The position numbers and the translations under genes are program-made. The notes under the pieces were generated by a model. The model was given only the letters and a program-made list of their open reading frames with translations, was not told the DNA's origin and did no database searches. Positions 16,377-40,328 of a stretch of 64,000 nucleotides of DNA are shown here, piece after piece (the first letter of the stretch is position 1; every line of letters starts with the position of its first letter). Location: assembly GCF_013283645.1 (NCBI RefSeq), contig NZ_JABEKV010000002.1:875798-939797 (forward strand). The letters are read 5' to 3'. This DNA is from Sinorhizobium psoraleae. Lineage in GTDB: Bacteria > Pseudomonadota > Alphaproteobacteria > Rhizobiales > Rhizobiaceae.

Positions 16377-16482
16377 CAGAGCGAGACGAAGAAGCGCGGG
16401 AAGCGGTTTTCCACCCGCGTCCCGCGCCAGTTGCCTGAAATCGACCCCGTCTCATGATCCTGCATAAGACCGCCCGTGAAGG

Positions 16483-18381: not shown

Positions 18382-18433
18382 GTTTTCAAGACTTTCAATC
18401 AGTAACTGTGATAACAATCTGTGGCACGGCCCC

Positions 18434-18487
18434 TTAGGATTGTCCCTACAGCCGCTGATTTGTCCGATTGCCCTTTAGATTTGTCCC
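18434..18487. repeat. three phased GAT(T)TGTCC repeats next to tRNA-Thr
   Basis: GATTGTCC (18438-18445), GATTTGTCC (18457-18465) and GATTTGTCC (18478-18486) recur every ~20-21 bp, the outer two preceded by TTAG or TTAGG. Iterated sites spaced by two helix turns are typical of transposase-binding ends or of iterons. No transposase gene is nearby, so this may be a remnant. Confidence 0.4.
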
Positions 18488-18594
18488 GGGCGCGATTTCA
18501 CGCGGGGGCGCTATTGGAAAGCACATGAATTCGGTCAATCGACGGAACTAGGCGATGAGTCCGTCCGATATCGACCCGACAGGCTTTTCGGCCC

Positions 18595-18990
18595 TCAGGA
18601 ATTAGGCCAGCGCCGTCTGGGCTCTTGAACTGCGATTGCAATGCTGTTCGCGTCCCGCTTATCGATGTTGATGACGTGACGGGCCTCGAAAGGCAACTCG
18701 ATGCCGCTCCAGAACTCCTCGTTTTCTTCGATAGCTTCTGGATTGTTGTCCAAGATGCCGAGATAGCCGCCGGGGACACGCTCTCGAACAATCACCCACA
18801 TGCGCTCTACCGAAACAGGTGCTTCCGGATCATCGACGCTAATGCGGAATATCAGCTTGACCAGGTCGCCCGGCTGTAGCCCTTCCCGAGCCTCAAGATC
18901 AGGAATCCAAAACCTCTCTGGTGCTGCGCGATGGTATTCCTCGCCATCGTCTAAGCACCAACCGTCCGTGTCGAAATCAGGTTTTCGCAT
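18595..18990 (-). CDS. hypothetical protein, DUF2314-like (131 aa)
   Basis: 131 residues, acidic and soluble, with no signal. The segment VERMWVIVRERVPGGYLGILDNNPEAI, followed by IELPFEARHVINID, resembles the DUF2314/YegJ-type fold, which carries such a Trp-Val...Gly...Leu-x-Asn-x-Pro core. The assignment is tentative. It is the first gene after tRNA-Thr, on the opposite strand, at the start of a region of small unclassified genes. Confidence 0.6.
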   Translation of the reverse strand: MRKPDFDTDGWCLDDGEEYHRAAPERFWIPDLEAREGLQPGDLVKLIFRISVDDPEAPVSVERMWVIVRERVPGGYLGILDNNPEAIEENEEFWSGIELPFEARHVINIDKRDANSIAIAVQEPRRRWPNS

Positions 18991-24551: not shown

Positions 24552-25739
24552 TCAGTTCTGCAGATCGTCCAGGTTGTCCGCGAGGTTGACGCCGGTATTC
24601 GCGATGCCGATCGGCCGCGCCACGAAGTCGAGGAATTTCGCAATGTCGACGGAGGGATGACGCGACGCGTAGATCACGTCACGATTCTTGATCGGGAAGG
24701 TCTGCCCGACGATCAGGCTATCCGGATTGGTCATGTTGAAACGATAGACGATCGGATAGCGGCCGACGCTGTCGGGCTTCATGCCCTTGCTCAGCATCGT
24801 GTTGAACCGCTCCCTTCCGAGCAGGCTCATGACGATATCCGGCTCTTCGTAACGGAAGACGAAATAGCCCTTCGCATCGACTGTCCGGTCGGCGCCGCCA
24901 CCCGCAAGTGCCACGGCTTCGAGGAGGTTCAGGTCGTTGGCGCCGAACTCGACGCGCTGGTTCGCCCTCACCTGGCCGAGGATCGTGAAGGTGCGCGGAT
25001 CGCGGGTCACAAAGACCTGGTCGCCCGGCTTGACGTGAATGTTTTCCGACGGGTTTTCGATGATCGATTTCAAGAGGACCGTACCGGTCTTCTTGCCGCG
25101 CACGAGTGTGACGTAGGTCTCGTAAGGCTGTGCCGACGGACCGCCGGCCTTGGCGATGACTTCGTTTATCGACTCGCTGACGAGATTCAAGGGCACGACC
25201 GACGGACGACCGACGGCGCCGGAAACCGTGACGATGCGCGATGCCGTGGACGTGCTCGTCACGATCACATCGGGCTCCACGGCCTTCTGCTTCAGCGCTT
25301 CGAGAATCGCCTGGCGTGCCTGTTCCAGCGTCAAGCCGGCAAAGCGGACCGGACCGACATAGGGAATGGCCGCCTTACCGTCAGGCTGGACGACCAGATC
25401 GATGTTGGTCTGCTTCGATTCCGTGGTGGAAAACAGGCCGTCGCTGCCCGCCTCGAAGATCGACACCTTCAGCTGGTCGCCAACACCGATGACGACCTGG
25501 CCGACGCCTCCACCAATGCCAAAGCGTCGGCTGAGCGTCGTCGAGACATAGTCAGAAACCAACCGTGCGGATTGGCCATCAACGTCGACGATATCAAAGA
25601 CGGTCGCATTCTTCCTGCCGATCTGCGCACCGGATTGCCCGGCATCCGCGACGATATCGGTTGTCAGAGGGCCTTCTCCCGGCACGGCCTGACATCCCGC
25701 AAGCGCGGTGCAAAGCAGAAGGGCAGTCACTCGTTTCAC
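24552..25739 (-). CDS. rkpU: capsular polysaccharide export outer-membrane lipoprotein (Wza/KpsD-like)
   Basis: 395 residues from a GTG at 25739 with a GGAG site upstream. That start gives a lipoprotein signal (KRVTALLLCTALAGC) with the lipobox cysteine, whereas the frame upstream to 25904 does not. A Poly_export domain (VVIGVGDQLKVSIFEAG, then QPDGKAAIPYVGPVRFAGLTLEQA) is followed by SLBB-type repeats (VTVSGAVGRPSVVPL, FTILGQVRANQRVEFG). This is the translocon class that carries capsule across the outer membrane. It is divergent from rkpA. The inner-membrane ABC exporter and periplasmic adaptor are not in the window. Confidence 0.88.
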   Translation of the reverse strand: MKRVTALLLCTALAGCQAVPGEGPLTTDIVADAGQSGAQIGRKNATVFDIVDVDGQSARLVSDYVSTTLSRRFGIGGGVGQVVIGVGDQLKVSIFEAGSDGLFSTTESKQTNIDLVVQPDGKAAIPYVGPVRFAGLTLEQARQAILEALKQKAVEPDVIVTSTSTASRIVTVSGAVGRPSVVPLNLVSESINEVIAKAGGPSAQPYETYVTLVRGKKTGTVLLKSIIENPSENIHVKPGDQVFVTRDPRTFTILGQVRANQRVEFGANDLNLLEAVALAGGGADRTVDAKGYFVFRYEEPDIVMSLLGRERFNTMLSKGMKPDSVGRYPIVYRFNMTNPDSLIVGQTFPIKNRDVIYASRHPSVDIAKFLDFVARPIGIANTGVNLADNLDDLQN

Positions 25740-26076
25740 TACGACACTCCATATTCGGCACAGCAATGACTCTAATACTGATCTGCACCGTATGTTTTCC
25801 CGGCAGGGAATCCGCCGGTCACTGCAAAGCACAATCGCCGTTCCACAACAAGCCACCTCACCGCCGGGCAGCCAAAATATTCGGCACTGCGCCTTTCCGG
25901 TCATACCTCCTCGACATTGGTTACGATCCGTCGCCGTAATTGTCTGGATGGGCCCTCACGACCTGTGTATCTAAGCCTTTGGGGTTGAAAGCTAGGTACT
26001 TTGAGTTAAAAGCTCACTAATACAGCGGGGACGGCTGGACGAATAAATTCGGGGAAAATAACAAATCGGTAATCTT

Positions 26077-26151: not shown

Positions 26152-29100
26152 ATGACTGTTGAAATCATAGGGCGTGCATGCCTCGCCCCCGGAGCGAAAT
26201 CGCCTGAGGCGCTGTTTAAGGTTCTTCGTCAGGGCAAATGCACCGTGTCCAGCGTTCCCTCGGACCGTTGGGACTTGGCGCGTTTTTGGCATCCCGTCAT
26301 GGGCGTGCAGGGCAAGACCTATTCTTTTGCTGCCGGCGTGCTTGATGAAATCTATGATTTCGATCCTGCTGTCTTCGGCATGTCCCAGCGCGAAGCCATG
26401 TATATGGATCCGCAACAGCGTGTGCTGCTGCAACTCGCCTGGCGCGCACTCGAGGATGCCAATATCTCCATTGCATCCCTCCATGGCGAGAATGTCGGCG
26501 TTTATGTCGGCGCGTCGAGCCTCGACCACGCCAACCTGACGGTCGAAGATCCGGCCGCCGCCGGTCCATATTTCATGACCGGCAACACGCTGTCGATCGT
26601 TTCCAACCGCATTTCCCACATCTTCGGGTTGAGCGGCCCGAGCATGACGGTGGACACCGCCTGCTCCTCTTCTCTCGTTGCGCTCGATCAGGCGATGCGG
26701 GCGCTCAACGCCGGCGAGATCGACACAGCGATCGTCGGCGGCGTCAATATTCTTGCCCATCCCCTTCCCTTCGTCGGCTTCGCCCAGGCGCGGATGCTGT
26801 CGCCGGAAGGTCTCTGCCGGGCCTATGACAATGACGGCGCGGGCTACGTGCGCGCCGAGGGCGGCGTCGTCTTCGTCCTTCGCCGCTCGGATCGGGCGCG
26901 CCGCGAACGCGACCGGAGCTACGCCAGGATCGTCGCTACCGGGGTCAACTCGGCCGGCCGGACCAACGGCATCTCGCTACCCTCGCGCGAGGCGCAGGCC
27001 AATTTGCTCAGGGCCATCTACGAAGGCAACGGAATCGACGCCAACCAGGTCGCCTTTGTCGAAGGCCATGGCACGGGCACCAAAGTGGGCGACCCGGCGG
27101 AAGTGTGGTCCATCGGCACGGTCATTGGCGCCAAGCGCCGGGCGCCGGTGCCGATCGGCTCCATCAAGTCGAATATCGGTCACACCGAGCCGGCCTCCGG
27201 CCTCTTCGGCATGATGAAGGCCGTTCTGGCGCTCGAGCACAACTACCTGCCGGCATCGCTGCATTTCGATACGCCGAACGAGCACATCGATTTCGACGGA
27301 CTGAACGTCCGCGTCACAGCCAACCCGATCGAACTGCTCAAGGGCAAGCGTGCACGCCTTGCCGGCATCAACTCCTTCGGCTTCGGCGGCGCCAATGCGC
27401 ACGTGGTCATCAGCGACCCGGAGGCGATACAGGAAGAAAAGGCGGCGCCTGCATCGGCTGGTCACGTGTTTCTGGCAAGCGCCCACACACTTTCGAGCCT
27501 CGAGAGCCTCCTGAAGGAATACAAGGCGAGCTTTGCGAGCGCCTCGAAGGAAGAGGCGCGCGCAATCATCGCCGCCTCCGGCGCCAACCGTACCCATATG
27601 CGCCATCGCTTCGCCGCGCGCAGCGATCACCCAGAAGATATCGTGCGGGCGATTGCCAGCCATCTGGAGAAGCCTGGCTCCGACATCGGCGAATTGGGCG
27701 AAGCCCCGGTGAAGGATGCTAAAGTCGCATTCGTCTTCTCGGGCAACGGCTCTCAGTGGGCCGGCATGGGCGTCGAAGCCTTCCGCGAGAACCTGCATTT
27801 CCGTCAGTCCTTCACTTCCGTCAGCGCGCTCTTCAAGTTCCACTCCGACATTGTCCTGACGGATCTGCTGACGGATCCAGACCTCGACAAGAAGCTCTCG
27901 GATACGAAAATCGCGCAGCCGCTGCTTTTTGCCGTGCAGGCTGCTCTTTCCGACTCGCTCGTCGCGATGGGGATCAAGCCGCTGGCGGTATTCGGCCACT
28001 CGGTTGGCGAGATTGCCGCCGCCTATGCAGCCGGTGCCTTGTCGCTCGTCGACGCCGTGTCGATCGTGGCCAAACGCTCGCTGCATCAGGATCTCCTGGC
28101 AGGCCAGGGAACGATGGCGGCCGTCATGCTCGGCGAGGAGGCGGCCCAGGCCTTCGCGCAGGCCCGCGGCCTCAACGAACTCTGCGTCGCAGCCGTCAAC
28201 GCGCATAATTCGGTCACGATGTCCGGTCCGGCGCACGAAATTGCAGCCTTCCGCGACGCCGCACGCAAGGCCAAGATCCCGGTCCAGATCCTCGATATCA
28301 ACTATCCGTTTCACCATCCGGTCATCGACCAGGCAAAGCAGGCCTTCCTTTCCGATATCCCGGACATCGCCCCGCGGCGTACGGAGCTGACGTATCTCTC
28401 CACCGTAACGGGCGCTGCACTCGACGGAACGGAACTCGACCCGGACTATTGGTGGAAAAATGTCCGTGAACCCGTTCGCTTCCAAGCTGCCGCGGAGGCG
28501 GCGCTGGAACTCGGCTGCCGGCTCTTCATCGAAATTTCCCCGCGCCCGATCCTGGCATCCTATGTCAAGGAAACGATCAAGCAGGCGGCCCTCCCGGCAG
28601 CGGTCGTGCCAACATTGCTCCGGGACGTCGGCCAGAGCGGTCACGATCCGATTTCCGCGTCGATGGCGCGCGCCGTCGCGCACGGTGCGGCTGTTGACCG
28701 GCCGCGCGTTTACGGGAAGCGCAACGCTTTCGTCGAATTGCCGATTCTGCCCTTCGAACCGGTCGAACTGCGGCCCGCGACCACCACTGATGCCACCGAC
28801 CTCTTCGGCCGTTCCGCCAAGCCTTTTCGTTTGACGGGCTGGCGCAGCGACCCCAACAGCGGGAGCTGGAAGAACCACGTCGATGCGCATCTCTTCCCCG
28901 ACCTTGCCGAGCATGTCGTCGACGGCAAGCCGATCCTGCCGGGCAGCGGCTTCATTGAGGTGGCAGTCTCCGCCGCGCAGCAATATTACGGCAGTGACGA
29001 GGTCGAGATCACCAATCTGGAGATCGTTCGTCCGCTGGAGCTTGCCGACAGCCGCATCATGGAGCTCTCGACCATCCTGTCCCCCGAGACAGGCGACATC

Positions 29101-32100
29101 GAAATCCGCTCGCGCGAGCGCCTCTCGGAGGACGACTGGACGGTCCACGCCGTTGCGCGAAGCCGCAAGCCCGTTCCCGGAAAGAACAATGCCTCACGTT
29201 CCCTCGCCGGCATGGCGAAAACGGCCAGCGTGGATCCGTCGAAAGCCTACGAGACGGCGAAGCAATTCGGGCTCGACTATGGCCCGAGCTTCCAGTTGCT
29301 TTCAAAGGCTGTGGCCTATGGTGACCGGATCATCGACGTCGAGCTGAAGGCGCCGGGCACGACGGGACATCCGCTTGTCACCTATGCCCTTCATCCAATA
29401 TCCGTCGACGCCACGTTCCACGGGCTCGTCGCGCTCTTCGACCGCTTTACGGGCGACAAGGGTGGCGCGCCTTACATTCCGGTACGCTTCGGTTCGGTGC
29501 ACGTCGTCAACGCCGGACGGCCGATCGCCCGCGCCACGATCGAGATCGAGCGCGTCAGCGCCAACTCGATCAAGGCGAGATTCCACTTCTTCGACAAGTC
29601 GGGCGAAGCCATCGCACATTTCAACGATTGTCGTTTCCGCCGCACTTATTTGCGCAAGCACAAGACGCTCGACGGGCTTTCCTTCCACTACGAGACGGTG
29701 CTCTCGGACACGGTGCTGCCCAACATGCAGCCGCCCGCGCCGATGCCGCCCCTGCTGACGATGCCTGCCGGTGCCGAACACAGCGTGGACAATGCGACCT
29801 TGCTGTTCAATGCTGCGATCTACCGCGCCTGCCAGGAAATCGCGCTGAAGCTCGCAAGGGGAGGCACGACCATCCGCGGCGATGCTCTGCCCGGTGATTT
29901 CGCCTTCCAGTGTTTCCTGACAAGCTGCCTCTACGTACTGGAGGATGCCGGCCTCAGCGAACATCACAATGGTATCTGGACAGTTGCACGAGAGTTCAGC
30001 CTTCCCGCTGTGGCGGAAATCCTCGGCGAGCTCTATGGCGAGCGTCCCGATCGCGCGGTCGAAGCCGTGCTCATCAACAATGCCTACGCCGAAGCCCTAA
30101 GCCGGCTCGACGCGCTTTTCGCGGCGGCGCCGGATGGCGACCACATACCCTCCTCCGGCGCGGGCTTCATCAGCGACGCCACGCTCGACCACCAGGCCGT
30201 TCATTCCGTCGCGAGCCGGCTGCGCATGGAGCAGGTCCTCGGCGCGGCTGAACGAGCACTGGCTGCGCAAACGACAGGCATCCCCTTACGCATTGTCGAG
30301 TTCGGAAGCGTTTCGACCGGCTTCACGCGTCGGCTCGCCGACCTGGCAGCTCGTCACGGAGCGGGCCTGATCGTTGCCGAACCGCGTGACAATGCCCAGC
30401 GCAACCTTGAGATCGCATTCGAGAACGATGCTCACGTGCGCATTCTCAAGAAAAGCGACTTCGTGGCGATCGCGCCCTTCGATCTCGCCGTCAGCGCCTC
30501 CGACAACCTTTACCATCTGATCGAAGACGAAGTCGCGCTTCGCACGGCGTTGCGCTCAGCGCTGCGCGAGGGCGGTGCCCTCGCCGCCGCCGTGAGCGCG
30601 CCCTCGATCTTCGGCGACTTCGCTCTCGGGCTGTCCGATGGCTGGTTTGCTCGCAGCCAGACGGCCGAGTTCCCCATCGGCAATCTTGCTGCCGTACCGC
30701 ATTGGCAGAAATGCCTGACGGATCTCGGACTGCGCGACATCAACGTCGCGGACCATGAGTGCGCACACGGCAACATCATTCTGCTCGAAGCCCGCGGCGC
30801 GGCCGCGATGACAATGCCGGCCGAGCCGGCGCAGCAGGCAAGCAGGACCGTTGCGGGTCCCTATCTGGTCCTCCAGGCAGAAGGCGCGCCACGAGCGGCA
30901 TCGATGCCTGCACTTGCCGTACCTGTTTCGCTGGCAGGCGACATGGCGGCCGACGTTGCAACACTGCGGATGGCCCTCAGCGCGCTCGGCCAGAATCCTG
31001 TTCGTGCAGTGCTCGTTTCGCCGACGACGCATCACGCGAGTGACACTGATTCGGCCTCGCTGCAAGCTCATGTGCTTGCGCTTAGCGCCTTCGCCGAAGC
31101 GCTGAGGCAACATGTCGGAGACACCGACCCGTCCGCCGACGACCGCCCTCGCCTGGTGCTCGTTGCCCCCGGCGGCGCGCCGGTTACCTCCCCGGCCGAT
31201 GGCGTCGCCTTCAGTTCCGGCCTGAATTCCGGCCTGTGGGCGTTCGCTCGCGTTCTGCAGAACGAATACGAATTCCTCGACGTCCATTCGCTCGATCTTG
31301 CCGGCCACAAGGCCGGCCCCGAGAATGGCATCGCGTCGGCGCTGTCTCTGTTGACGGTCTCCGGTTCAAATCGCGAATGGTTGCTCGACGGGGCCACTGG
31401 ATTGCTCTCGGAAATCCGCGCCGTTCCCGGTCCCGCCATCAGCACCGAAGGCAAGACGAGCGCCTTTGCAGCGGCGACCATCCGCCAGCGCGTCAGCTCT
31501 CAGGTTGCCAGCATCGCCTGGGAAGAGAGTGATGTACCGCAAGCCGGACGGGGCGAGATCGTCGTCGCGGTCGCTGCTACCGGCCTGAACTTCCGCGACG
31601 TGATGTGGGCGATGGGCCTTCTTCCCGAGGAAGCGCTCGAAGATGGTTTTGCCGGCGCAACGATCGGCATGGAGCTTTCCGGCCATGTCGTCGCGGTCGG
31701 CGAAGGCGTCGACGACCTCACGGTCGGCGACGCGGTCATGGCAATTGCACCTTCGGCATTCTCGACGCACGCGGTCGTTTCCCGGGCGGGCGTTGCCAAG
31801 CTGCCGCGGACCATCAGCCCCGTAGCAGCAGCCACCGTGCCCGTCGCCTTCCTTACGGCCTATTATGCGATGGTCGAGCTCGGACGCATCCAGGCGGGAG
31901 AGACGATCCTCATCCACGGCGCTGCCGGCGGCGTCGGTCTGGCTGCCCTCCAGGTCGCCAAGCTCAAGGGCGCCAAGGTCATAGCGACAGCTGGAACACG
32001 TGAAAAACGGCGCTTCCTTGCGATGCTCGGAGCCGATCACGTCTTCGATTCGCGGTCGCTCGGTTTCGTCAACGATGTGCGCGCCGTCACCGACGGTCAG

Positions 32101-33693
32101 GGCGTCGACCTCGTGCTGAACTCGCTTTTCGCCGAGGCGATGGAGCAAAGCCTCGCTCTGGTGAAGCCGTTCGGCCGGTTCCTGGAGCTTGGCAAGCGCG
32201 ACTATTACGCCGACAGCAAGATCGGTTTGCGGCCGTTCCGACGGAACGTCAGCTATTTCGGCATCGATGCCGACCAGCTTCTCGTCAATGCGCCCGAGCT
32301 CACCAAGCGCATCTTCATGGAAATCGGAGCTCTTTTCGAGGAAGGCAAGCTGACGCCGCTTCCTTACCGCGCGTTCGATTTCGACGAAATCGGCAACGCA
32401 TTCCGGCTGATGCAGAATGCCGGCCACATCGGCAAGATCGTCGTGCTGCCGCCGGTCGCCGGCAAGCACGAGATTGCCGCGAAGACGCACAAGGGCGTGA
32501 AGGTCGATCCGGACGGCATGCATCTCGTTGTCGGCGGCATTGGCGGTTTCGGTCTCGCAGCCGCCAACTGGCTGGTTGAGAAGGGTGCACGCAGGATTGC
32601 GTTGTGCTCCCGCCGCGGTCAGCCGGACGCGGAAACGAGTGCGATGATCGCGCGGTGGAAGAAGGCGGGCGTATCTGCCTCGCTTCACGCCTGTGACATC
32701 ACCGACGCTGCCGCAGTGGCGGGGCTTCTCGCGGCGCTTCGCGCCGAGGCGCCGCTGCGTTCCGTCGTCCATGCTGCGATGGTGCTGGACGACGCCCTGA
32801 TCAGCAATCTCAACCGTGAACGCAACCGCCCGGTGATAGACACGAAGGCCAAGGGTGCCGCGATCCTCGACCGGCTGACGCGTGGCGACCAGCTCGACAA
32901 CTTTATCCTGTTTTCCTCGGCAACGACGCTCGTCGGCAACCCGGGGCAGGCCAACTACGTCGCTGCCAACGGCTATCTCGAAGGCCTTGCCCGCGCCCGA
33001 CGCGCAGAGGGCCTCGCAGGCCTGGCGGTCGGCTTCGGCGCGATCGCGGATGCCGGTTATCTCGTGCAGAACACCGATGTGAACGATCTTCTGGCAAAAC
33101 GCATCGGCAAGACCGCTTTGAAGGCTCAGGTGGCGCTGGACATGGTCGAAAGCCACATCGCCTCGGATCCGGGCACCGTCGATGCCGCAGTCGTGATGAT
33201 TTCGGAGATCGACTGGGCGGCCGCGCGCAACCTGCCGGTTGCCCGCAATGCGCTCTTCGAGGTAATCCTGCGCAGTGCGGATCAGCATTCTTCCGGCGCC
33301 GAGGGCATGCAGATGGACCTCGTTGCGATGATCGAAGGGAAGTCGCCGCAGGAAGCAGAGGACATTCTGTTCGACCTGGTGGCAGGCGAGATCGCCGCAA
33401 TCCTTCGGGTTTCGAAGGACACGGTGACCCGCAGCAAGATCCTGAAGGAAATCGGCCTGGACAGCCTCATGGCGGTGGAACTCGGCATGAGCTTCCAGCA
33501 GAACACCGGTTTCGACATGCCTTTGAGCGGCGTCGCCGACAATACGACGGTGGGCGATGTTGCGCGCAAGCTCCATGAAAAGGTAAGCAAGCGCGACCAG
33601 GGTGACGATAGCGAGGCAGCCGACGACCGGCTCGTAAGCGAACTTGCGCAGCGCCATGCCGGGACCGACAGGGAAAAAGCACTGAGCCAATGA
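26152..33693 (+). CDS. rkpA: multidomain type I fatty-acid/polyketide synthase of the rkp capsule region
   Basis: 2513 residues in one frame. KS ~1-425 has Cys171 (DTACSSSL), His306 (EGHGTGTKVGD) and His344 (SNIGHTEPASG). AT ~520-830 has Ser617 in GHSVGEIAA. DH ~890-1180 has His921 in HVVDGKPILPG. A methyltransferase-like region ~1370-1500 has a poor SAM motif (EFGSVSTGFT). ER ~1770-2090 contains HGAAGGVGLAALQ. KR ~2120-2330 has GGIGGFG and Tyr2269 (NPGQANYVAANGY). ACP has phosphopantetheine Ser2438 (LDSLMA). This complete reducing module should build a saturated chain iteratively. There is no thioesterase, so release must use another protein, most simply RkpG, whose start overlaps this stop. 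Confidence 0.93.
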   Translation: MTVEIIGRACLAPGAKSPEALFKVLRQGKCTVSSVPSDRWDLARFWHPVMGVQGKTYSFAAGVLDEIYDFDPAVFGMSQREAMYMDPQQRVLLQLAWRALEDANISIASLHGENVGVYVGASSLDHANLTVEDPAAAGPYFMTGNTLSIVSNRISHIFGLSGPSMTVDTACSSSLVALDQAMRALNAGEIDTAIVGGVNILAHPLPFVGFAQARMLSPEGLCRAYDNDGAGYVRAEGGVVFVLRRSDRARRERDRSYARIVATGVNSAGRTNGISLPSREAQANLLRAIYEGNGIDANQVAFVEGHGTGTKVGDPAEVWSIGTVIGAKRRAPVPIGSIKSNIGHTEPASGLFGMMKAVLALEHNYLPASLHFDTPNEHIDFDGLNVRVTANPIELLKGKRARLAGINSFGFGGANAHVVISDPEAIQEEKAAPASAGHVFLASAHTLSSLESLLKEYKASFASASKEEARAIIAASGANRTHMRHRFAARSDHPEDIVRAIASHLEKPGSDIGELGEAPVKDAKVAFVFSGNGSQWAGMGVEAFRENLHFRQSFTSVSALFKFHSDIVLTDLLTDPDLDKKLSDTKIAQPLLFAVQAALSDSLVAMGIKPLAVFGHSVGEIAAAYAAGALSLVDAVSIVAKRSLHQDLLAGQGTMAAVMLGEEAAQAFAQARGLNELCVAAVNAHNSVTMSGPAHEIAAFRDAARKAKIPVQILDINYPFHHPVIDQAKQAFLSDIPDIAPRRTELTYLSTVTGAALDGTELDPDYWWKNVREPVRFQAAAEAALELGCRLFIEISPRPILASYVKETIKQAALPAAVVPTLLRDVGQSGHDPISASMARAVAHGAAVDRPRVYGKRNAFVELPILPFEPVELRPATTTDATDLFGRSAKPFRLTGWRSDPNSGSWKNHVDAHLFPDLAEHVVDGKPILPGSGFIEVAVSAAQQYYGSDEVEITNLEIVRPLELADSRIMELSTILSPETGDIEIRSRERLSEDDWTVHAVARSRKPVPGKNNASRSLAGMAKTASVDPSKAYETAKQFGLDYGPSFQLLSKAVAYGDRIIDVELKAPGTTGHPLVTYALHPISVDATFHGLVALFDRFTGDKGGAPYIPVRFGSVHVVNAGRPIARATIEIERVSANSIKARFHFFDKSGEAIAHFNDCRFRRTYLRKHKTLDGLSFHYETVLSDTVLPNMQPPAPMPPLLTMPAGAEHSVDNATLLFNAAIYRACQEIALKLARGGTTIRGDALPGDFAFQCFLTSCLYVLEDAGLSEHHNGIWTVAREFSLPAVAEILGELYGERPDRAVEAVLINNAYAEALSRLDALFAAAPDGDHIPSSGAGFISDATLDHQAVHSVASRLRMEQVLGAAERALAAQTTGIPLRIVEFGSVSTGFTRRLADLAARHGAGLIVAEPRDNAQRNLEIAFENDAHVRILKKSDFVAIAPFDLAVSASDNLYHLIEDEVALRTALRSALREGGALAAAVSAPSIFGDFALGLSDGWFARSQTAEFPIGNLAAVPHWQKCLTDLGLRDINVADHECAHGNIILLEARGAAAMTMPAEPAQQASRTVAGPYLVLQAEGAPRAASMPALAVPVSLAGDMAADVATLRMALSALGQNPVRAVLVSPTTHHASDTDSASLQAHVLALSAFAEALRQHVGDTDPSADDRPRLVLVAPGGAPVTSPADGVAFSSGLNSGLWAFARVLQNEYEFLDVHSLDLAGHKAGPENGIASALSLLTVSGSNREWLLDGATGLLSEIRAVPGPAISTEGKTSAFAAATIRQRVSSQVASIAWEESDVPQAGRGEIVVAVAATGLNFRDVMWAMGLLPEEALEDGFAGATIGMELSGHVVAVGEGVDDLTVGDAVMAIAPSAFSTHAVVSRAGVAKLPRTISPVAAATVPVAFLTAYYAMVELGRIQAGETILIHGAAGGVGLAALQVAKLKGAKVIATAGTREKRRFLAMLGADHVFDSRSLGFVNDVRAVTDGQGVDLVLNSLFAEAMEQSLALVKPFGRFLELGKRDYYADSKIGLRPFRRNVSYFGIDADQLLVNAPELTKRIFMEIGALFEEGKLTPLPYRAFDFDEIGNAFRLMQNAGHIGKIVVLPPVAGKHEIAAKTHKGVKVDPDGMHLVVGGIGGFGLAAANWLVEKGARRIALCSRRGQPDAETSAMIARWKKAGVSASLHACDITDAAAVAGLLAALRAEAPLRSVVHAAMVLDDALISNLNRERNRPVIDTKAKGAAILDRLTRGDQLDNFILFSSATTLVGNPGQANYVAANGYLEGLARARRAEGLAGLAVGFGAIADAGYLVQNTDVNDLLAKRIGKTALKAQVALDMVESHIASDPGTVDAAVVMISEIDWAAARNLPVARNALFEVILRSADQHSSGAEGMQMDLVAMIEGKSPQEAEDILFDLVAGEIAAILRVSKDTVTRSKILKEIGLDSLMAVELGMSFQQNTGFDMPLSGVADNTTVGDVARKLHEKVSKRDQGDDSEAADDRLVSELAQRHAGTDREKALSQ

Positions 33694-35105
33694 GCAACGA
33701 CGGAAACGGCCAGACCTTCTCCAAGATGAACAGCAGCCTCAAGGAGAACCTGCTGGACAGGATGAGGAACACGCACCAATCGTCCGAGCGCAACCGCATG
33801 GCGCGCTCGGAACGGGAGTTGCCGGCCGCTCCCCGCCGCCGACAGGCCCGCTTCGAGGATCTTCCCGAATATAAGCAGGTGCTCACGCAAAAATTCGCGA
33901 GCGAGCAACTGGGTATCGCCAATCCTTTCTATCGGGCACACCAGGCGGCCGCCGGCGCAACCACCGTGATCGACGGCCGCAAGCTGATCAACTTCGCCTC
34001 CTACGATTACCTCGGTTTGAACCGGCACGCCCACGTGCTGGACAGGGCACGCGACACGATCGAGTCGTTCGGGATCTCCGCTTCGGCGAGCAGGCTCGTT
34101 GCCGGCGAGCGGCCCGTGCATGTCGAACTCGAGGAAAAGATCGCGCGCTTCTATGGCGTCGAAGCGGCGGTTTGCTTCGTCAGCGGCTATCTCACCAACG
34201 TTGCCGCCATCAGCTGCCTGATGGGCCCCAAGGATCTCGTCATCCACGACGAGTTCATCCACAACAGCGCGCTCGCCGGCATCAAGCTTTCCGGCGCGAC
34301 GCGCCGCCTCTTCAAGCACAACGACACCGCGGATCTCGAACACGTACTGCGTACCGTTTCCGGCGACTATCGTCACATCATGGTCATCGTCGAAGGCATC
34401 TACTCGATGGACGGCGATGTCGCGAATCTTCCTGCACTGCTGAAGCTCAAGGCCGAATATGGCTTCTGGCTGATGGTCGACGAGGCTCATTCGCTCGGCG
34501 TTCTCGGGCGGCACGGCAAGGGGCTGGCCGAACACTTCGGTGTCGATCCCCACGAGATCGACATCTGGATGGGAACGTTGTCGAAAACCACGTCGAGCTG
34601 CGGCGGTTATATTGCCGGCAGCGAGGCATTGGCGGCGGTGCTCAAGGCATCCGCCGGCGGCTTCGTCTACAGTGTCGGTCTGGCACCGGTGCTCGGAGCA
34701 TCGGCGGTCGCCAGCCTCGATATCCTCGAACGCGAGCCCGAACGCACCGCGGCGCTGAGGCGCAACGGCAGCCTGTTCCTCAAGCTCGCGAAAGAGGCCG
34801 GCCTCGACACCGGTCTGAGCGGCGGCTTCTCGGTCGTTCCCGTCATCGTCGGCGATTCGCTCCGCGCCGTGCAGCTCTCCAACGATCTGCTGGCGGCGGG
34901 CGTCAACGTGCTGCCGATCATCCATCCCGCCGTGCCCGAAGGATTGGCGCGACTGCGCTTCTTCATCACCAGCGACCACACCGAAGAACAGATCCGCCGG
35001 ACCGTCGCGCTCACCGCCGAGCGCCTCAAGGATTTGACCGAACGAAATTTCGGGCTTGGCGGCGTCGACATCGAGCAGATGTTGAAGGCGCTCTCGGCGC
35101 GTTAG
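33690..35105 (+). CDS. rkpG: PLP-dependent alpha-oxoamine synthase (AONS/SPT/KBL family)
   Basis: 471 residues. The ATG overlaps the rkpA stop (ATGA), so the two are translationally coupled. After a ~90-residue charged N-terminal extension comes the fold-type I catalytic domain: NFASYDYLGLNRH, CFVSGYLTNVAA, the Asp-Glu-Ala-His motif in MVDEAHSLGVLGRHGKG and the PLP lysine K299 in TLSKTTSSCGGYIAG. The family condenses an acyl thioester with an amino acid and releases CO2. Coupling to an ACP-ended synthase suggests the acyl donor is RkpA-bound and that this step off-loads the chain. The amino-acid substrate is unknown. Confidence 0.9.
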   Translation: MSNDGNGQTFSKMNSSLKENLLDRMRNTHQSSERNRMARSERELPAAPRRRQARFEDLPEYKQVLTQKFASEQLGIANPFYRAHQAAAGATTVIDGRKLINFASYDYLGLNRHAHVLDRARDTIESFGISASASRLVAGERPVHVELEEKIARFYGVEAAVCFVSGYLTNVAAISCLMGPKDLVIHDEFIHNSALAGIKLSGATRRLFKHNDTADLEHVLRTVSGDYRHIMVIVEGIYSMDGDVANLPALLKLKAEYGFWLMVDEAHSLGVLGRHGKGLAEHFGVDPHEIDIWMGTLSKTTSSCGGYIAGSEALAAVLKASAGGFVYSVGLAPVLGASAVASLDILEREPERTAALRRNGSLFLKLAKEAGLDTGLSGGFSVVPVIVGDSLRAVQLSNDLLAAGVNVLPIIHPAVPEGLARLRFFITSDHTEEQIRRTVALTAERLKDLTERNFGLGGVDIEQMLKALSAR

Positions 35106-35144
35106 GCCGGACGGAAATCCGTTATACACCTCTCCTGGAAGCGC
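35106..35144. repeat. decayed conserved-loop palindrome between rkpG and rkpH
   Basis: GCCGGACGGAAATCCGTTATACACCTCTCCTGGAAGCGCC resembles hairpin B at 10880-10921, with the same GGAAA-CCG-TA-ACAC core. The outer arms are degraded. It splits an otherwise tight operon by 80 bp. Confidence 0.5.
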
Positions 35145-35185
35145 CCTGGAAACCTCTGCCCCCAAGCCGCAGGCGGAAACTGAGA

Positions 35186-35989
35186 ATGACCCATGTGATC
35201 ATCACCGGTGGCTCCAGCGGCATAGGCCTGGAACTTGCATTGATCTACGCAAGCCGCGGCGCGCGACTTTCACTCATTGCGCGCTCCCGCGATCTTCTGG
35301 AACAGGCCAGGCGAAAGCTCATCTCGGAGCACGGCGCAGAGGCCGGAGAGATCCGCGTCGAGGCGGCCGATGTTGCCCAGGAGGAAGAGATCGAGGCTGC
35401 CGTTCGGCGTTGCGTCGAAGCCTTCGGCCCGTGCGATATTCTCGTGACCTCGGCCGGCATCGTCGAACCGGCTCCTTTCGAGGAACAGCAAAGCGCGGCC
35501 TTTCGCCGCCAGATGGAAACGAATTTTTCGGGCACGGTCCACACGGTGCGCGCCGTCTATGCGGACATGAAGCGACGGCGCAGGGGAAAGATCATGATGA
35601 TCTCATCGGGCGCCGGCCTCATCGGCATTTATGGCTATTCCGCCTATTGCGCGTCGAAATTCGCGCTCCACGGTTTTGCCCAGGCGCTGCGCAGCGAGGC
35701 GCGAAGACACGATGTGCAGATATCGGTAAGCTTCCCGCCGGATACGGAAACGCCGCAGTTCGAGCGCGAGCTCTCCCTGCGTCCGCGCGAGGCGAATGTC
35801 ATAATGGGGACCGTCCGGCCATGGGCGGCCGATGCCGTCGCCCGCAGGATCGCCGCAAGCATCGACCAGCAGCGCTTCGAGGTTTACTTCGGCACAACCC
35901 TGTTTCTGCTCGGCCGGTTCGCCCCTGCCGTAAGGCCGCTTATCAACTGGTGGCTCGATCGGGCGATCGCACGCGGTAGTGGACGGTGA
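35186..35989 (+). CDS. rkpH: short-chain dehydrogenase resembling 3-ketosphinganine reductase
   Basis: 267 residues from the ATG at 35186. NAD(P) motif TGGSSGIG (residues ~7-14), TSAGIV as the NAG motif, and catalytic Tyr154/Lys158 (YCASK). Residues 184-190 read PPDTETP, a segment characteristic of eukaryotic 3-ketodihydrosphingosine reductases rather than generic FabG enzymes. The C-terminus (FLLGRFAPAVRPLINWW) is hydrophobic, consistent with membrane association as in that group. It most likely reduces the beta-keto product of RkpG. The name follows the known rkp-1 order; the reaction is inferred. Confidence 0.85.
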   Translation: MTHVIITGGSSGIGLELALIYASRGARLSLIARSRDLLEQARRKLISEHGAEAGEIRVEAADVAQEEEIEAAVRRCVEAFGPCDILVTSAGIVEPAPFEEQQSAAFRRQMETNFSGTVHTVRAVYADMKRRRRGKIMMISSGAGLIGIYGYSAYCASKFALHGFAQALRSEARRHDVQISVSFPPDTETPQFERELSLRPREANVIMGTVRPWAADAVARRIAASIDQQRFEVYFGTTLFLLGRFAPAVRPLINWWLDRAIARGSGR

Positions 35990-36093: not shown

Positions 36094-37686
36094 TTGCCGC
36101 AACTTTCCTTTCATCTCCATGATTATCCGGCAGCGCTGACCCTCTTTTGCTACGTCCTGTCCTGCGGCGTAATCTTCTTCACGGATCGCTTCGCCCTGCC
36201 GGCGCGCGAGCGCAGGAGGAACAGGCCTCGCTATGGGCGTAATCAGGATATTATCGACGTCTTCGCGCGGCTGCCGGTCATAGCGCTCGTCTTTGCCGGC
36301 TTCTTCGCGATCTCCTGGCGCCCCCTCTATGCGGCTGCCGGGGTCATGAGCTTCTTCATCATTTTCACCGGCATTTCCCGCGCCAAGTTCAAGTTCATCC
36401 GTGAACCCTTGGTGTTCTCGGACATCGCCCTCATTGCCGACGTCTTCAAATACAAGACGATCTTCTACGCGACCTCGCTGAATATCCTGTTCTGGATCGT
36501 CGCTTTCCTCTACGTATTCGGCGTTTCCGCGCTCTACATGTATTTCGAGCCGACCATCTTGCCGGAGCAAGGCAAGTTGTTCTGGGTTCTGCTGATGATC
36601 CTCGTTGCCGCCGCGCCCTGGGGCTTGCTTTTCTACGGTCCGGTGAACCGGCCGACTGCAGCCCTCGTCCAGAAGCTCGTCAGGGCCATCAACGTCAAGA
36701 TGAATACGGTGCGCTTCGGGACCTTCGCCTCCGTCGTCTTCCACTTCATCATATGGCTGGGCGTGAAGCGTGAAAAAATCGTCGCCGAACTCTCGGAGCG
36801 GCTTCGCGCCGCCGTGCAGGACCTTATCGGCCACGAGGAAGCCCCGCTGATCGTCGTCTGGCAATCAGAGTCCTTTATCGACATGCGCCACTTCGGCGTC
36901 GACACGATCAAGCTGCCGACGATCGACCGGCTGCGCAAACAGGCGGTGCAGTGGGGCCGCCTCAGCAACGTGTTCGAGGGCGGTTATACGCTGCGTACCG
37001 AGTTCGCCGTGCTGAGCGGCCTCTTGCCTGATGATATCCATGTCGATGCCAGCTACCCCTATCTTCGCGCCTCGCATTACGCCGACGTCGTGTGGCCGGG
37101 GAAATTGAAACGCGCTGGCTGGCATACGCACTTCATTCATCCCTATGACCGGACGTTCTTCCTCCGGCACAAGGCGATGCCGCAGCTCGGCTTCGACAAG
37201 CTCACCATGCTGGACGCCTTCGATCACAAACCCGAGCGCGACGGGCTCTATGTCTCCGACGCGGCGCTGACGTCGCGGGTAATTGCCGAAGTGGAGAAGC
37301 TGCCGGAAGACGAAAGCGGCTTCTTCTTCGTCGCCTCCATGGCCAATCATGGCCCGTGGGAGCCCGGCCGCGTGGGCACGCTCACGAACCCGGTCGACAT
37401 CTACATGGCAATTCTGCAGCAATCGGATGCCGCGCTCAAAGAACTGATCGACAAGCTCAACAAGCTCGAGCGTCCTGTCTGGCTGGTCTTCTACGGCGAC
37501 CATGCGCCTCTTCTGAAGTCCTTCGCAGACCCGTTCCCGGACCCCCGCACGGACTACTTCATCGTGCCGCTCGCCAAGGCGCGCCCGGCTCAGCCCGGTG
37601 CAAAAGGTCCTCAGGACGAGGACCCGTGGAACCTGATACGGTCCCTGCTCCGATATGCAAACCTGCAAAAGGATGCGCTGCAATAG
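36094..37686 (+). CDS. rkpI: membrane LtaS/sulfatase-fold phosphoglycerol- or phosphoethanolamine-transferase-like protein
   Basis: 530 residues from a TTG start with GAAGG upstream; no in-frame ATG or GTG precedes it. About five membrane helices fill residues 1-180. A periplasmic alkaline-phosphatase-superfamily domain follows: VWQSESFIDMRHF (metal site), GGYTLRTEFAVLSGLL (probable nucleophile Thr), FVASMANHGPWEPG and YGDHAPLL (metal ligands). Relatives move phosphoglycerol or phosphoethanolamine from lipids to polymers. A capsule or lipid-anchor modification is plausible. It lies in the rkp operon 105 bp after rkpH. Confidence 0.82.
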   Translation: MPQLSFHLHDYPAALTLFCYVLSCGVIFFTDRFALPARERRRNRPRYGRNQDIIDVFARLPVIALVFAGFFAISWRPLYAAAGVMSFFIIFTGISRAKFKFIREPLVFSDIALIADVFKYKTIFYATSLNILFWIVAFLYVFGVSALYMYFEPTILPEQGKLFWVLLMILVAAAPWGLLFYGPVNRPTAALVQKLVRAINVKMNTVRFGTFASVVFHFIIWLGVKREKIVAELSERLRAAVQDLIGHEEAPLIVVWQSESFIDMRHFGVDTIKLPTIDRLRKQAVQWGRLSNVFEGGYTLRTEFAVLSGLLPDDIHVDASYPYLRASHYADVVWPGKLKRAGWHTHFIHPYDRTFFLRHKAMPQLGFDKLTMLDAFDHKPERDGLYVSDAALTSRVIAEVEKLPEDESGFFFVASMANHGPWEPGRVGTLTNPVDIYMAILQQSDAALKELIDKLNKLERPVWLVFYGDHAPLLKSFADPFPDPRTDYFIVPLAKARPAQPGAKGPQDEDPWNLIRSLLRYANLQKDALQ

Positions 37687-37701: not shown

Positions 37702-39015
37702 ATGACAGCGGGCACGACAATCAATCGCTTGGCACCACGGACGTTCCTGTTTCTGCAGGGCCCCTCGTCGCCGATCTTCGCCAAGATCGCAGCCGGGCTC
37801 GAGGAATTGGGCCATACCTGCCTTCGCATCAATCTCAACGTCGGCGACCAGATCTTCTGGCGACGTCGCGGCGCCGATAATTATCGCGGCTCCATGTCCG
37901 CATGGCCGGCCTATGTCGAGGCCTTTATCCGTCGCCACGCCGTCAGCGACCTGGTGCTGCTTGGCGAAGAGCGCCCCTATCACAAAGCCGCGATCGCGGC
38001 TGCCCGCGAGAGAGGCGTTGCCGTCTTCATCGTCGAGATGGGCTATCTCAGGCCCGACTGGCTGACGCTGGAACGTGGCGGCATGTCGTCCAACTCGCAC
38101 TTTCCGGCTGAAGCAGACCAGATCCTGCGGGCGGCGGCCGACCTGCCGGAACCGGACTGGCGGCGGCTTTACGAACAGTCTTTCCTCGCCGAAGCGGTCT
38201 ACGACCTGCTGTACAATCTTCCGAACGTCTTCCTCTGGATTCTTTTCCCCGGTTACCGCCGGCACGGGATCTTTCATCCGCTAGCGGAATATGCGGGGTG
38301 GCTGTTGCGCTTGACCACGCAAGGGCGGCGGCAACGCGCGGCCGACGCCCTTATCCGCTCGCTGACCTCGGAAGGGACCGGCTACTTCGTCTATCCGCTG
38401 CAGTTGGAGACCGACTATCAACTGCGTGCGCACTCGCCGTTCAACAGCCAGAAGGAAGCGATCCGCGCGATCCTTGCCTCCTTCGCGCGCCACGCCCCCG
38501 CGGACAGCACACTGGCGATCAAGACCCACCCCCTCGACAACGGCCTCATCCGCTGGCGCAAGATCATCTTCGAAGAAGCAGCCAAGGCTGGAGTTGCAGA
38601 CCGCGTCGCCTATCTCGACGGCGGCAATCTGGATGTCCTGGTACAGGGAAGTGCCGGTGTGGTTACGGTCAACTCGACCGCCGGGCTGCATGCCTTGAGA
38701 CAGGGCAAGCCGGTAAAAGTACTCGGCAGTGCCGTATTCGACGTTGCGGGCCTCACCGACCAGCAGCCGTTGGACTTGTTCTGGCAAGGGCCGCAAGCGC
38801 CGGATCCGGCCTTAAGCGCGGCCTTGTTCAGGTTGATGGCTGCCGCCATCCAGGTTCGTGGAAATTTCTATTCAAGCGCAGGCACGAGCGCCGGCGCGAA
38901 GGCGATCGCGGAGCGTTTGCATCGGCGCGTCGTCAATGAACCCGGGGCTTTCGTAAACCCTCCGCCTCGTCGAAAGCCGGCGAAGATCACACCGGCTGGC
39001 GCTGACCTTGCGTAA
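37702..39015 (+). CDS. rkpJ: KpsS-like capsule biosynthesis protein
   Basis: 437 residues, soluble, starting 15 bp after rkpI. It is related to the KpsS/LipB capsule proteins: LFLQGPSSPIFAKIAAGLEELGH at the N-terminus, NVGDQIFWRRRGADNYRG, LGEERPYHKAA, and the C-terminal KTHPLDNG and TVNSTAGLHALRQGKPV blocks. In E. coli, KpsS and KpsC are beta-Kdo transferases that build the linker on a phospholipid. By family, RkpJ probably starts or extends such a linker on the rkp lipid. Acceptor not known. Confidence 0.87.
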   Translation: MTAGTTINRLAPRTFLFLQGPSSPIFAKIAAGLEELGHTCLRINLNVGDQIFWRRRGADNYRGSMSAWPAYVEAFIRRHAVSDLVLLGEERPYHKAAIAAARERGVAVFIVEMGYLRPDWLTLERGGMSSNSHFPAEADQILRAAADLPEPDWRRLYEQSFLAEAVYDLLYNLPNVFLWILFPGYRRHGIFHPLAEYAGWLLRLTTQGRRQRAADALIRSLTSEGTGYFVYPLQLETDYQLRAHSPFNSQKEAIRAILASFARHAPADSTLAIKTHPLDNGLIRWRKIIFEEAAKAGVADRVAYLDGGNLDVLVQGSAGVVTVNSTAGLHALRQGKPVKVLGSAVFDVAGLTDQQPLDLFWQGPQAPDPALSAALFRLMAAAIQVRGNFYSSAGTSAGAKAIAERLHRRVVNEPGAFVNPPPRRKPAKITPAGADLA

Positions 39016-40182: not shown

Positions 40183-40328
40183 TGTCGATCCTAGTTCCCG
40201 CGACGAAATTGCCCGACACCCCGCCGTTTCAGCGGTAAACGAAGCACGTAGAAGCCAGATAAGCGCTTTTTCTTGGCAAACCAAGTCTATTTGCGCCTGT
40301 TTGCACCAAAACAGACTTGTTCGATCCG

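Follow-up and report, generated by a model that had tools for sequence, protein, structure and literature searches.

Rhizobial capsule genes probably make a polyketide-derived, sphinganine-type membrane anchor

We analyzed the rkp capsule genes of Sinorhizobium psoraleae and propose that they probably make a polyketide-derived lipid of the sphinganine type, which would serve as the membrane anchor of the capsule and would be unlike the anchor of E. coli. The genes, their domains and catalytic residues, the gene row, the clade of RkpG, a natural fusion, and the co-segregation of KpsS with RkpA-RkpG are read directly from DNA sequence. The synthesis of sphinganines from serine by a polyketide synthase (PKS) and an oxoamine synthase is established for the homologous pair SgaA/SgaB (in the available part of PMC12134224). 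For the window, we infer the amino acid used by RkpG, the RkpI step, and the use of the lipid as a capsule anchor.

In the proposed pathway, RkpA would work iteratively, and the long acyl chain that it builds on its own acyl carrier protein (ACP) would be saturated and probably unbranched. RkpG would then free the chain through a decarboxylative condensation, with L-serine as the most likely amino acid, yielding 3-ketosphinganine. RkpH would reduce the ketone, giving sphinganine. RkpI would most likely move phosphoglycerol, probably from phosphatidylglycerol (PG), to the 1-hydroxyl. The resulting sphinganine-1-phosphoglycerol would be a one-chain lipid with the head group of lyso-PG (a lyso-PG mimic), and because RkpI resembles phosphoglycerol transferases, we propose this lipid as the acceptor for KpsS. 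RkpJ, which is of the KpsS type, would put the first beta-Kdo on its glycerol; other enzymes would add the rest of the Kdo linker and the capsule before the finished chain is exported. An earlier note on this DNA had proposed the route from iterative PKS through off-loading and ketone reduction to a capsule lipid. It fits most of our computations, and its first two steps are those established for SgaA/SgaB, but the methyltransferase that it included looks like a relic.

If the proposal is true, then the product of the rhizobial capsule PKS is named and the giant PKS in capsule loci is explained, sphingolipids are predicted in many Gram-negative bacteria from which none are known, and a major capsule class, plant symbionts included, has a second anchor chemistry. 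The rhizobial capsule locus has a fatty-acid-synthase-like gene that was reportedly described by Petrovics in 1993; among the openly licensed papers listed in our searches, none was found in which its product is named.

The rkp genes and their predicted products

The window is the whole stretch that we analyzed, 64,000 nucleotides from a nitrogen-fixing soil bacterium. Its relevant features are:

24552..25904, minus strand: rkpU, outer-membrane polysaccharide export (OPX) protein (Poly_export/SLBB); start codon uncertain
26152..33693, plus strand: rkpA, iterative highly reducing type I PKS (one open reading frame, 2513 aa, no thioesterase)
26158..27609, plus strand: RkpA ketosynthase (KS), aa 3-486 (PF00109/PF02801/PF16197 and motifs)
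27730..28635, plus strand: RkpA acyltransferase (AT), aa 527-828 (PF00698)
28855..29643, plus strand: RkpA dehydratase (DH), aa 902-1164 (PF21089/PF14765)
30289..30801, plus strand: apparent RkpA methyltransferase (MT) relic, about aa 1380-1550, limits approximate (the L114/L106 counterpart matches PF08242)
31546..32445, plus strand: RkpA enoylreductase (ER), aa 1799-2098 (PF08240/PF00107/PF13602)
32515..33048, plus strand: RkpA ketoreductase (KR), aa 2122-2299 (PF08659)
33379..33567, plus strand: RkpA ACP, aa 2410-2472 (PF00550)
33690..35105, plus strand: rkpG, PLP-dependent alpha-oxoamine synthase with K299, predicted serine-using off-loading enzyme (PF00155, invariant residues, tree)
35186..35989, plus strand: rkpH, short-chain dehydrogenase/reductase (SDR), predicted 3-ketosphinganine reductase (PF00106, PPDTETP)
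36094..37686, plus strand: rkpI, membrane LtaS/GacH-like enzyme, predicted sphinganine phosphoglycerol transferase (PF00884, PDB match, invariant residues)
37702..39015, plus strand: rkpJ, KpsS-family beta-Kdo transferase, predicted first-Kdo enzyme on the RkpA-G-H-I lipid (PF05159, trees)
39172..40284, minus strand: KpsF/KdsD-type arabinose-5-phosphate isomerase for Kdo supply (TIGR00393, 292.5 bits, cut-off 203.7); start codon uncertain

By Pfam, the domains of RkpA run in the order KS, AT, PKS dehydratase, ER (ADH_N, ADH_zinc_N), KR, and ACP, and the scan found no thioesterase. Each of these domains has its motifs: TACSSS, EGHGTGT, and NIGHTE (KS), GHSVGE (AT), HVVDGKPILPG (DH), HGAAGGVGLA (ER), NYVAANGY (KR), and IGLDSL (ACP). 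Residues 1165-1800 had no Pfam match even at E ≤ 1, and the SAM motif there is degraded (EFGSVSTGF). For both reasons, this region looks like a methyltransferase relic that is dead in the window's protein, and we ruled out an active methyltransferase. When the same stretch was scanned in three relatives, Methyltransf_12 was above the cut-off in L114 and L106 and not in L112. The earlier note had given RkpA the order KS-AT-DH-MT-ER-KR-ACP with no thioesterase, which stands except for the MT.

The end of rkpA and the start of rkpG share 4 bases (33690-33693), and the GTLSKT motif places the PLP lysine of RkpG at K299. With the match to PF00155, these bear out the earlier description of rkpG as an alpha-oxoamine synthase that overlaps the rkpA stop. 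In an alignment of RkpG with 8 PKS-linked relatives (alignment A2), H191, D264, H267, K299, and R421 are invariant in 9 of 9 rows. RkpG did not reach any NCBIfam cut-off, including those for serine palmitoyltransferase (SPT): it scored 304, 277, and 206 bits against the classical SPT models NF047600, NF047599, and NF047603 (cut-offs 640, 500, and 670) and 363 bits against the BioF model TIGR00858 (cut-off 426).

Downstream, RkpH has PPDTETP at residue 184, in agreement with the earlier note, which had placed this segment in a gene that follows rkpG. We take PPDTxTP to be a mark of 3-ketosphinganine reductase (KDSR). It is present in 22 of 46 RkpH-like SDRs (21 rhizobial proteins and the one from L033) and absent from the Pseudomonas SDRs among those 46.

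The closest PDB match of RkpI is the phosphoglycerol transferase GacH (2e-10). Its residues E259, T299, H419, D469, and H470 are invariant in 17 rows and, going by LtaS, presumably provide the Thr nucleophile and the metal ligands. RkpI relates only weakly to LtaS/OpgB models (10.6 bits against the NCBIfam LtaS equivalog model, cut-off 970). Known members of this fold act outside the membrane, whereas KpsS acts inside. The loop charges of RkpI point to a reversed orientation (from hydropathy alone, which gives 4 to 7 segments per row), which suggests that RkpI is turned the opposite way to the known members, with its catalytic side facing the cytoplasm. An apparent KpsC-RkpI fusion in L027 (1068 aa) was rejected: its first 555 residues are a spurious open-frame extension with a net charge of +78 and no Pfam match.

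Linkage of the PKS and the oxoamine synthase

In 77 of 80 named loci (the best 80 of at least 586 relatives), the gene directly preceding the RkpG homologue is the PKS. (Adjacency was scored by an open reading frame rule for 75 loci and by match coordinates for L052 and L053.) In L100 and L117, the PKS is about 1.1 kb upstream, with an LpxC-like gene in between in L117, and L089 has no PKS in the approximately 1 kb of upstream sequence present. In L033, the PKS and the synthase are naturally fused (2611 aa), and an SDR with PPDTDTP lies within the same gene row. Similarly, a Planktothrix coding sequence that is annotated as a type I PKS has the synthase match at its end.

A tree of oxoamine synthases, with rows from 23 of the 80 named loci, 9 of 11 sample loci, and the window, places RkpG and 32 other PKS-linked synthases (33 such rows) in a single clade with support of 97/97. 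This clade is separate from the classical SPT, ALAS, KBL, and BioF-like rows; SgaB and fungal sequences are not among the rows. L116 was omitted (a stop lies within the coordinates used), and the remaining loci were redundant or unpicked. The earlier note had named a grouping of RkpG with PKS-linked synthases as support for its reading, and that is where RkpG falls. The tree position and the scores below cut-off rule out RkpG as BioF, KBL, or ALAS.

Capsule genes are often nearby. Of 59 long loci, only 26 have a relative of RkpI near the module, 35 have one of RkpJ, and 36 have an RkpH-like SDR; rhizobial near-copies make up many of the loci behind these counts. One Pseudomonas and one Paraburkholderia plasmid record each group the PKS, the synthase, an LTA-synthase-family protein, an SDR, and a KpsS-type capsule gene. 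Several Pseudomonas relatives of RkpA-RkpG have RkpI- and KpsS-type genes alongside them in a kps locus: the PKS/synthase/LTA-synthase-like/SDR/kps block was found in five of the seven Pseudomonas-genus loci with enough flank (L111, L252, L253, L254, and L257). The other two, L256 and L258, have no kps gene within the visible stretch. The L256 synthase is 88% identical to that of L111, and the region upstream of the L256 PKS is not covered.

The wcb cluster of Burkholderia (WcbR, BPSL2786-2792) has the same gene set as rkp. The available part of PMC4275268 lists an acetyltransferase, an oxoamine synthase (annotated as 8-amino-7-oxononanoate synthase), an LpxC-like protein, the PKS WcbR, a sulfatase-like protein, an SDR, and a capsule export/biosynthesis protein, and rkp and wcb are called equivalent in PMC3908369 (in part). 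Unlike rkp, wcb clusters carry additional LpxC-like and GNAT genes, which lie next to the PKS and the synthase or separate them (B. lata, Paraburkholderia).

KpsS and KpsC in genomes with and without the module

KpsS puts the first Kdo onto the lipid, and KpsC lengthens the Kdo linker. The rkp system resembles the E. coli group 2 system, in which KpsS and KpsC act on (lyso)PG, in that RkpJ belongs to PF05159 (357.5 bits, cut-off 20) as KpsS does. RkpJ is below the cut-off of the KpsS equivalog NF050054 (214 bits versus 600), which implies a separate KpsS subgroup and matches the KpsS trees below.

PF05159 was found in 7 of 10 module-positive and 24 of 189 module-negative sample genomes (Fisher p 1e-4) and in 32 of 41 named module-positive genomes. 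(The latter represent 41 of the 80 named loci, leaving out the rhizobial and most of the Methylobacterium and Stappiaceae loci.) Some genomes have the module and no PF05159 match (3 of 10 and 9 of 41), so its capsule role is not universal.

In a tree of KpsS proteins, a single branch (98/97) parts 27 module-positive from 14 module-negative rows. When labels were shuffled, the mean was 11.9 changes, and 0 of 500 shuffles were as low as observed. Of the 24 module-negative genomes in which PF05159 was found, 14 supplied rows and 10, whose matches were weak or partial, did not. The positives are 7 of 7 sample genomes, 17 of 32 named genomes (taken from the upper portion of the PF05159 matches, skipping G210, G212, G230, G234, and G245), and the window, with two rows each from G221 and G209. 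The split was reproduced with 45 rows (98/95; the L111 copy of the gene stood in for row G242), with E. coli Nissle 1917, whose capsule is presumably of the K5 type, on the negative side. Unlike the Nissle KpsS, RkpJ is in a clade with module-bearing genomes only, among the rows examined.

KpsC does not split this way; module-positive and module-negative genomes are mixed together among its relatives. The KpsC tree has 12 negatives and 23 positives, of which 11 and 19 are shared with the KpsS tree. In these same 30 genomes, the module labels fit KpsS with 1 change, a count that none of 500 shuffles matched. KpsC needs 7 changes, 4 of them imposed by branches that have support, and 46 and 37 of 500 shuffles needed as few. 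Across the larger KpsC tree, some clustering of the labels persists (13 and 6 of 500 shuffles needed as few). Discordant pairs illustrate the contrast: G082 and G227 are 74.5% identical in KpsC and 28.8% in KpsS, and Nissle and G214 are 49.7% and 34.8% identical.

The KpsS split is not mere taxonomy, as the negatives include the window's own order and class, others, and E. coli, and the positive side spans alpha-, beta-, and gammaproteobacteria. Nor is it mere linkage of the whole locus, as KpsC from the same genomes does not split. A search for a divergent module in 15 negatives with the A2 profile found only general synthases, at up to 332 bits and with none listed in G082, plus a PKS-less type of synthase in G067 (440 bits). 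(The other module-negative genomes were checked at E ≤ 1e-90 only.) That KpsS splits while KpsC does not is independent support for the anchor proposal.

Could the RkpA-G-H product instead be a free membrane lipid or a signal, with the capsule on ordinary PG and the genes adjacent for other reasons? We consider this unlikely. The module-positive genomes without PF05159 would fit it, as would L256 and L258, and the "phospholipid anchor" that a 2005 title by Fraysse reportedly gives the S. meliloti 1021 capsule could mean ordinary PG, which would count against a sphingolipid. Also, the sphingolipids of P. fluorescens MYb115 affect a worm host and are described as a secondary metabolite that protects the host, and the available part of that paper is silent on capsules (0 occurrences of "capsul"; PMC12134224). 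But the co-segregation of KpsS, and not KpsC, with the module argues against it, as does a review, seen in part, that tells of a specific lipid carrier for capsule secretion, made and modified by the rkp-1 products, and of rkp-1 mutants that are KPS-deficient (PMC4881576). The earlier note's suggestion that the product anchors the capsule for RkpJ gains from the contrast between KpsS and KpsC and loses some generality from the KpsS-less genomes. It is quite possible, though somewhat less likely than not, that a whole class of ABC-exported capsules across the Alpha-, Beta-, and Gammaproteobacteria is built on sphinganine-1-phosphoglycerol instead of PG, with a cytoplasm-facing RkpI, and that the KpsS acceptor switched once while KpsC was exchanged freely.

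The amino acid, and related systems

Sphinganine synthesis has been published for the Pseudomonas pair SgaA/SgaB. According to the available part of that paper, purified SgaB shows an SPT activity that is far higher with L-Ser than with Ala or Gly, and the strain with SgaB makes C24-C28 sphinganines and +154 Da forms that were assigned as phosphoglycerol sphingolipids (PMC12134224). If RkpG instead used Ala, Gly, or another amino acid, the anchor would be amino-alcohol-like and would have no 1-hydroxyl for phosphoglycerol, so RkpI would do another job, such as adding phosphoglycerol or phosphoethanolamine to a sugar. We find this improbable. RkpG does lie outside the classical SPT clade and under all SPT cut-offs, and sequence is an unsafe guide to the choice of amino acid, but the sole purified PKS-linked homologue uses serine almost exclusively (PMC12134224, in part), and SPTs are among the top structure matches of RkpG. 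Very improbably, RkpA could be a fatty acid synthase that feeds PG remodelling or polysaccharide acylation with RkpG as merely an acyltransferase, against which stand the intact PLP oxoamine-synthase active site of RkpG, the fusion or closeness of such synthases to the ACP end of the PKS, and the PPDTxTP reductase that comes next in rhizobia.

Fungal fumonisin and sphingofungin systems have the same domain order and release logic as RkpA-RkpG, but the MT of RkpA appears to be a relic. Against the PDB, RkpG scored 234-236 bits for bacterial SPT/oxoamine synthase structures and 118 bits for the fungal sphingofungin enzyme SphA. Because the bacterial enzymes are so much nearer, the "fumonisin-type" label of the earlier note is likely an analogy. 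RkpG shares its fold family, PLP lysine, and reaction type with classical bacterial SPT, which works with a dedicated ACP (PMC9386255, in part); it differs in its separate clade and in its predicted acyl source, a PKS rather than a free ACP.

The genes PfSgaA, SgaB, and SgaC of MYb115 resemble rkpA-G-H: an iterative one-module PKS, then directly a PLP oxoamine synthase, plus an SDR. The spacing of the sgaB and sgaC locus tags (19800 to 19775) is the same as on plasmid NZ_CP016850 (26440 to 26415), which suggests that the sga genes may sit in a kps locus too.

The rkp-1 locus and its PKS-oxoamine synthase pair

The genome that contains the window is 7.43 Mb in 67 contigs. The genes run in the order rkpU (reverse strand), rkpA, rkpG, rkpH, rkpI, rkpJ (all forward), and a KpsF-type gene (reverse), with a 4-base overlap between rkpA and rkpG. 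Sinorhizobium meliloti Ak57 has a matching gene row in its pSymB region, with 92.8% identity for RkpG (the gene table for that region is incomplete and lacks rkpI), and identity to named Ensifer loci is up to 96% among the matches listed. We therefore consider the locus to be the rkp-1 of a Sinorhizobium/Ensifer relative.

The earlier note gave RkpA, an iterative reducing polyketide synthase (PKS), the domain order KS-AT-DH-MT-ER-KR-ACP without a thioesterase. With Pfam and a motif scan, we recovered KS, AT, DH, ER, KR, and ACP, each with its motifs, and Pfam found no thioesterase. The MT assignment did not hold as a working domain: the stretch between DH and ER has no Pfam match, even at E ≤ 1. 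The homologous stretch matched Methyltransf_12 in two of the three relatives scanned (L114 and L106). In a 31-row alignment, the SAM motif has decayed in the rhizobial sequences and in the majority of the rest; a few rows, L114 among them, come closer to it. Judging by its sequence, this stretch is a methyltransferase relic.

RkpG, the alpha-oxoamine synthase, retains K299, H191, D264, H267, and R421, and falls below the NCBIfam cut-offs for BioF (363 versus 426 bits) and for serine palmitoyltransferase or SPT (304 versus 640, 277 versus 500, and 206 versus 670 bits). In a 63-row tree that included labelled reference rows, RkpG falls, as the earlier note had anticipated, into a single clade of 33 PKS-linked synthases (97/97), to which the synthase portion of a PKS-synthase fusion also belongs. 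The sister of this clade is a group without a PKS, and the classical SPTs and the Sphingobacterium enzyme 3a2b make up their own separate clade (100/96). With scores below the SPT cut-offs and a position outside that clade, RkpG may have an SPT-like mode of action but does not belong to the classical SPT family. The PKS-less sister group (L020-L022, with flanks L035-L037) has no adjoining PKS, and an RkpH-like short-chain dehydrogenase (SDR) is nearby in L037 and L036; it probably represents a different amino-ketone lipid pathway.

Gene neighborhoods and a published precedent

A PKS lies directly upstream of the RkpG homologue in 77 of the best 80 named relatives (of at least 586), 75 by an ORF rule and two (L052 and L053) by match coordinates. 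Two further loci, L100 and L117, have it at an upstream distance of about 1.1 kb, and L089 shows none within its ~1 kb of upstream DNA. In one genome (G169, locus L033), PKS and synthase are a single 2611-aa protein, and on a Planktothrix plasmid a CDS annotated as a type I PKS has the synthase match at its end. The fusion is followed on its own strand by genes for export, for an SDR that carries PPDTDTP, and for a CTP_transf_1 protein. This cluster (799-18791), with HlyD, FtsX/MacB, and OEP export genes and a myo-inositol-1-phosphate-synthase-like gene recognized by eye only, is possibly an inositol sphingolipid pathway. Of 46 RkpH-like SDRs, 22 have PPDTxTP: 21 from rhizobia and the one in the fusion cluster. 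The motif is absent from the Pseudomonas SDRs in this set.

Across 59 long loci, RkpI was near the RkpA-RkpG module in 26, RkpH in 36, and RkpJ in 35. In the genus Pseudomonas (matches in 9 of 199 genomes), the pair faces a block of KpsC, GNAT, RkpI-like, SDR, and KpsS genes in five of the seven loci with enough flank (L111, L252, L253, L254, and L257); the other two, L256 and L258, have no kps gene within the stretch fetched. On one Pseudomonas plasmid, kdsA, kdsB, and kpsF are close to this block. A single row on a Paraburkholderia plasmid reads capsule gene, SDR, LTA synthase family, PKS, LpxC-like, synthase, GNAT. The capsule genes of B. pseudomallei have the same order in a table of PMC4275268, which files the synthase (BPSL2787, a homologue of RkpG at 33690-35105) under biotin metabolism as 8-amino-7-oxononanoate synthase. 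The LpxC-like deacetylase gene separates PKS and synthase in Burkholderia lata and Paraburkholderia (L117, 8890-9804; L261, 10911-11825). The GNAT gene recurs in Pseudomonas and Burkholderia-type versions (L111, 15767-16342; L252, L253, L254, L257, L259, and L261) and could N-acylate a long-chain base.

In Pseudomonas fluorescens MYb115, SgaA and SgaB are reported to be required for C24-C28 sphinganines, and purified SgaB condenses L-serine with acyl-CoA, barely using alanine or glycine (Peters et al. 2025, PMC12134224). By the authors' count there are 6101 homologous clusters, mostly in Burkholderia, and SgaC is called a KDSR homologue. Neither "capsul" nor "rhizob" appears as a string in that paper. 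The sgaB-sgaC gap in locus tags equals the gap in the Pseudomonas plasmid kps locus, which has an LTA-synthase-family gene in between, and we infer that the sga cluster sits within a kps locus. Homology to this proven system gives good support to the earlier note's PKS and oxoamine synthase assembly line, which very probably yields a long-chain amino alcohol.

KpsS, KpsC, and a proposed capsule anchor

In E. coli K5, KpsS is described as placing the first Kdo on the glycerol of (lyso)phosphatidylglycerol, and KpsC as extending the linker (PMC7694667; PMC12220298). KpsS should follow the lipid and KpsC should not if some capsules have another lipid. The RkpA-RkpG pair is present in 10 of 199 sample genomes (the window's phylum, its own genome excluded). 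PF05159, the family of KpsS and RkpJ, has a match in 7 of the 10 pair-positive genomes versus 24 of the 189 others (Fisher p ~1e-4), and in 32 of 41 named positive genomes.

A single branch (98/97) of a 41-row KpsS tree parts 27 rows from module-positive genomes from 14 rows from negative genomes; shuffled labels needed a mean of 11.9 changes, and in 500 shuffles the count was never as low as observed. The split was kept (98/95) in 45 rows with more Pseudomonas and E. coli Nissle 1917, which fell among the negatives. A 35-row KpsC tree had 7 changes (8 in a quick tree with Nissle). A profile search of 15 negatives did not find the module. Such label patterns can be inflated by near-copies and row choice, most of which is guarded against by restricting both trees to the 30 genomes they share (19 positive and 11 negative). 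In this paired comparison, KpsS had 1 change (98/95; 0 of 500 shuffles as low), whereas KpsC had 7, at least 4 of them forced by well-supported branches (a count matched or undercut in 46 and 37 of 500 shuffles). For example, negative G082 and positive G227 (Comamonas) share 74.5% identity in KpsC versus 28.8% in KpsS, and Nissle and Paenalcaligenes G214 share 49.7% versus 34.8%; for two positives, G227 and G235, the values are 42.0% and 52.7%.

This evolutionary test, which could have failed, makes it reasonably likely that the predicted amino-alcohol lipid is the capsule anchor. As a general role, the anchor proposed in the earlier note is only partly sustained: KpsS, not KpsC, splits with the module, but 3 of the 10 sample and 9 of the 41 named positive genomes have no PF05159 match. 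Because of these genomes, and because some modules have no RkpI, RkpH, or RkpJ nearby, lipid use appears to differ between lineages; the lipid probably serves KpsS-type capsules in many and another purpose in others. In Nitrosomonas europaea (L072, 9857-15138), the genes after RkpA-RkpG are of the OPX, ABC permease, ATPase, and PCP types (KpsD/M/T/E-like), and the genome has no PF05159 match; perhaps a capsule is built there on the RkpA-RkpG lipid without a Kdo linker.

The positive genomes of L059, L061, L062, L071, and L081 each have an adjoining pair of full-length KpsS-type genes. In E. coli Nissle 1917 (L274, 33968-38052), a row annotated as fatty acyl-AMP ligase, epimerase, ACP, and serine palmitoyltransferase is ~30 kb from the kps genes.

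RkpI and a possible phosphoglycerol step

MYb115 also contains +154 Da forms, assigned as phosphoglycerol sphingolipids, and the sections of PMC12134224 cited here name no gene for the addition. By sequence, the best solved relatives of RkpI are the phosphoglycerol transferase GacH (2e-10) and a lipoteichoic acid primase (8e-5). The P. putida version reaches 34 bits with the LtaS model and 24 bits with phosphoglycerol transferase I, both far below the cut-offs, and the window's RkpI hardly matches either. That the predicted lipid receives phosphoglycerol is a specific guess, with the chances about even.

A 2005 paper by Fraysse reportedly announces a phospholipid anchor in its title; as a phosphoglycerol-sphinganine would contain phosphate, that title is compatible with both readings of the anchor. 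Among the matches listed from the open-licence literature, we found no link between capsule, sphingolipid, and PKS.

The presumed nucleophile and metal ligands of RkpI, whose roles we take from LtaS, are invariant in 17 rows. Hydropathy gives 4-7 segments per row, five of them common to most full-length rows. The charged loops hint at an outside N-terminus and an inside catalytic domain, the reverse of the single control (L263), a paralogue with five segments from the same genome. This suggests that the catalytic domain is inside, where it would lie on the leaflet at which KpsS works.
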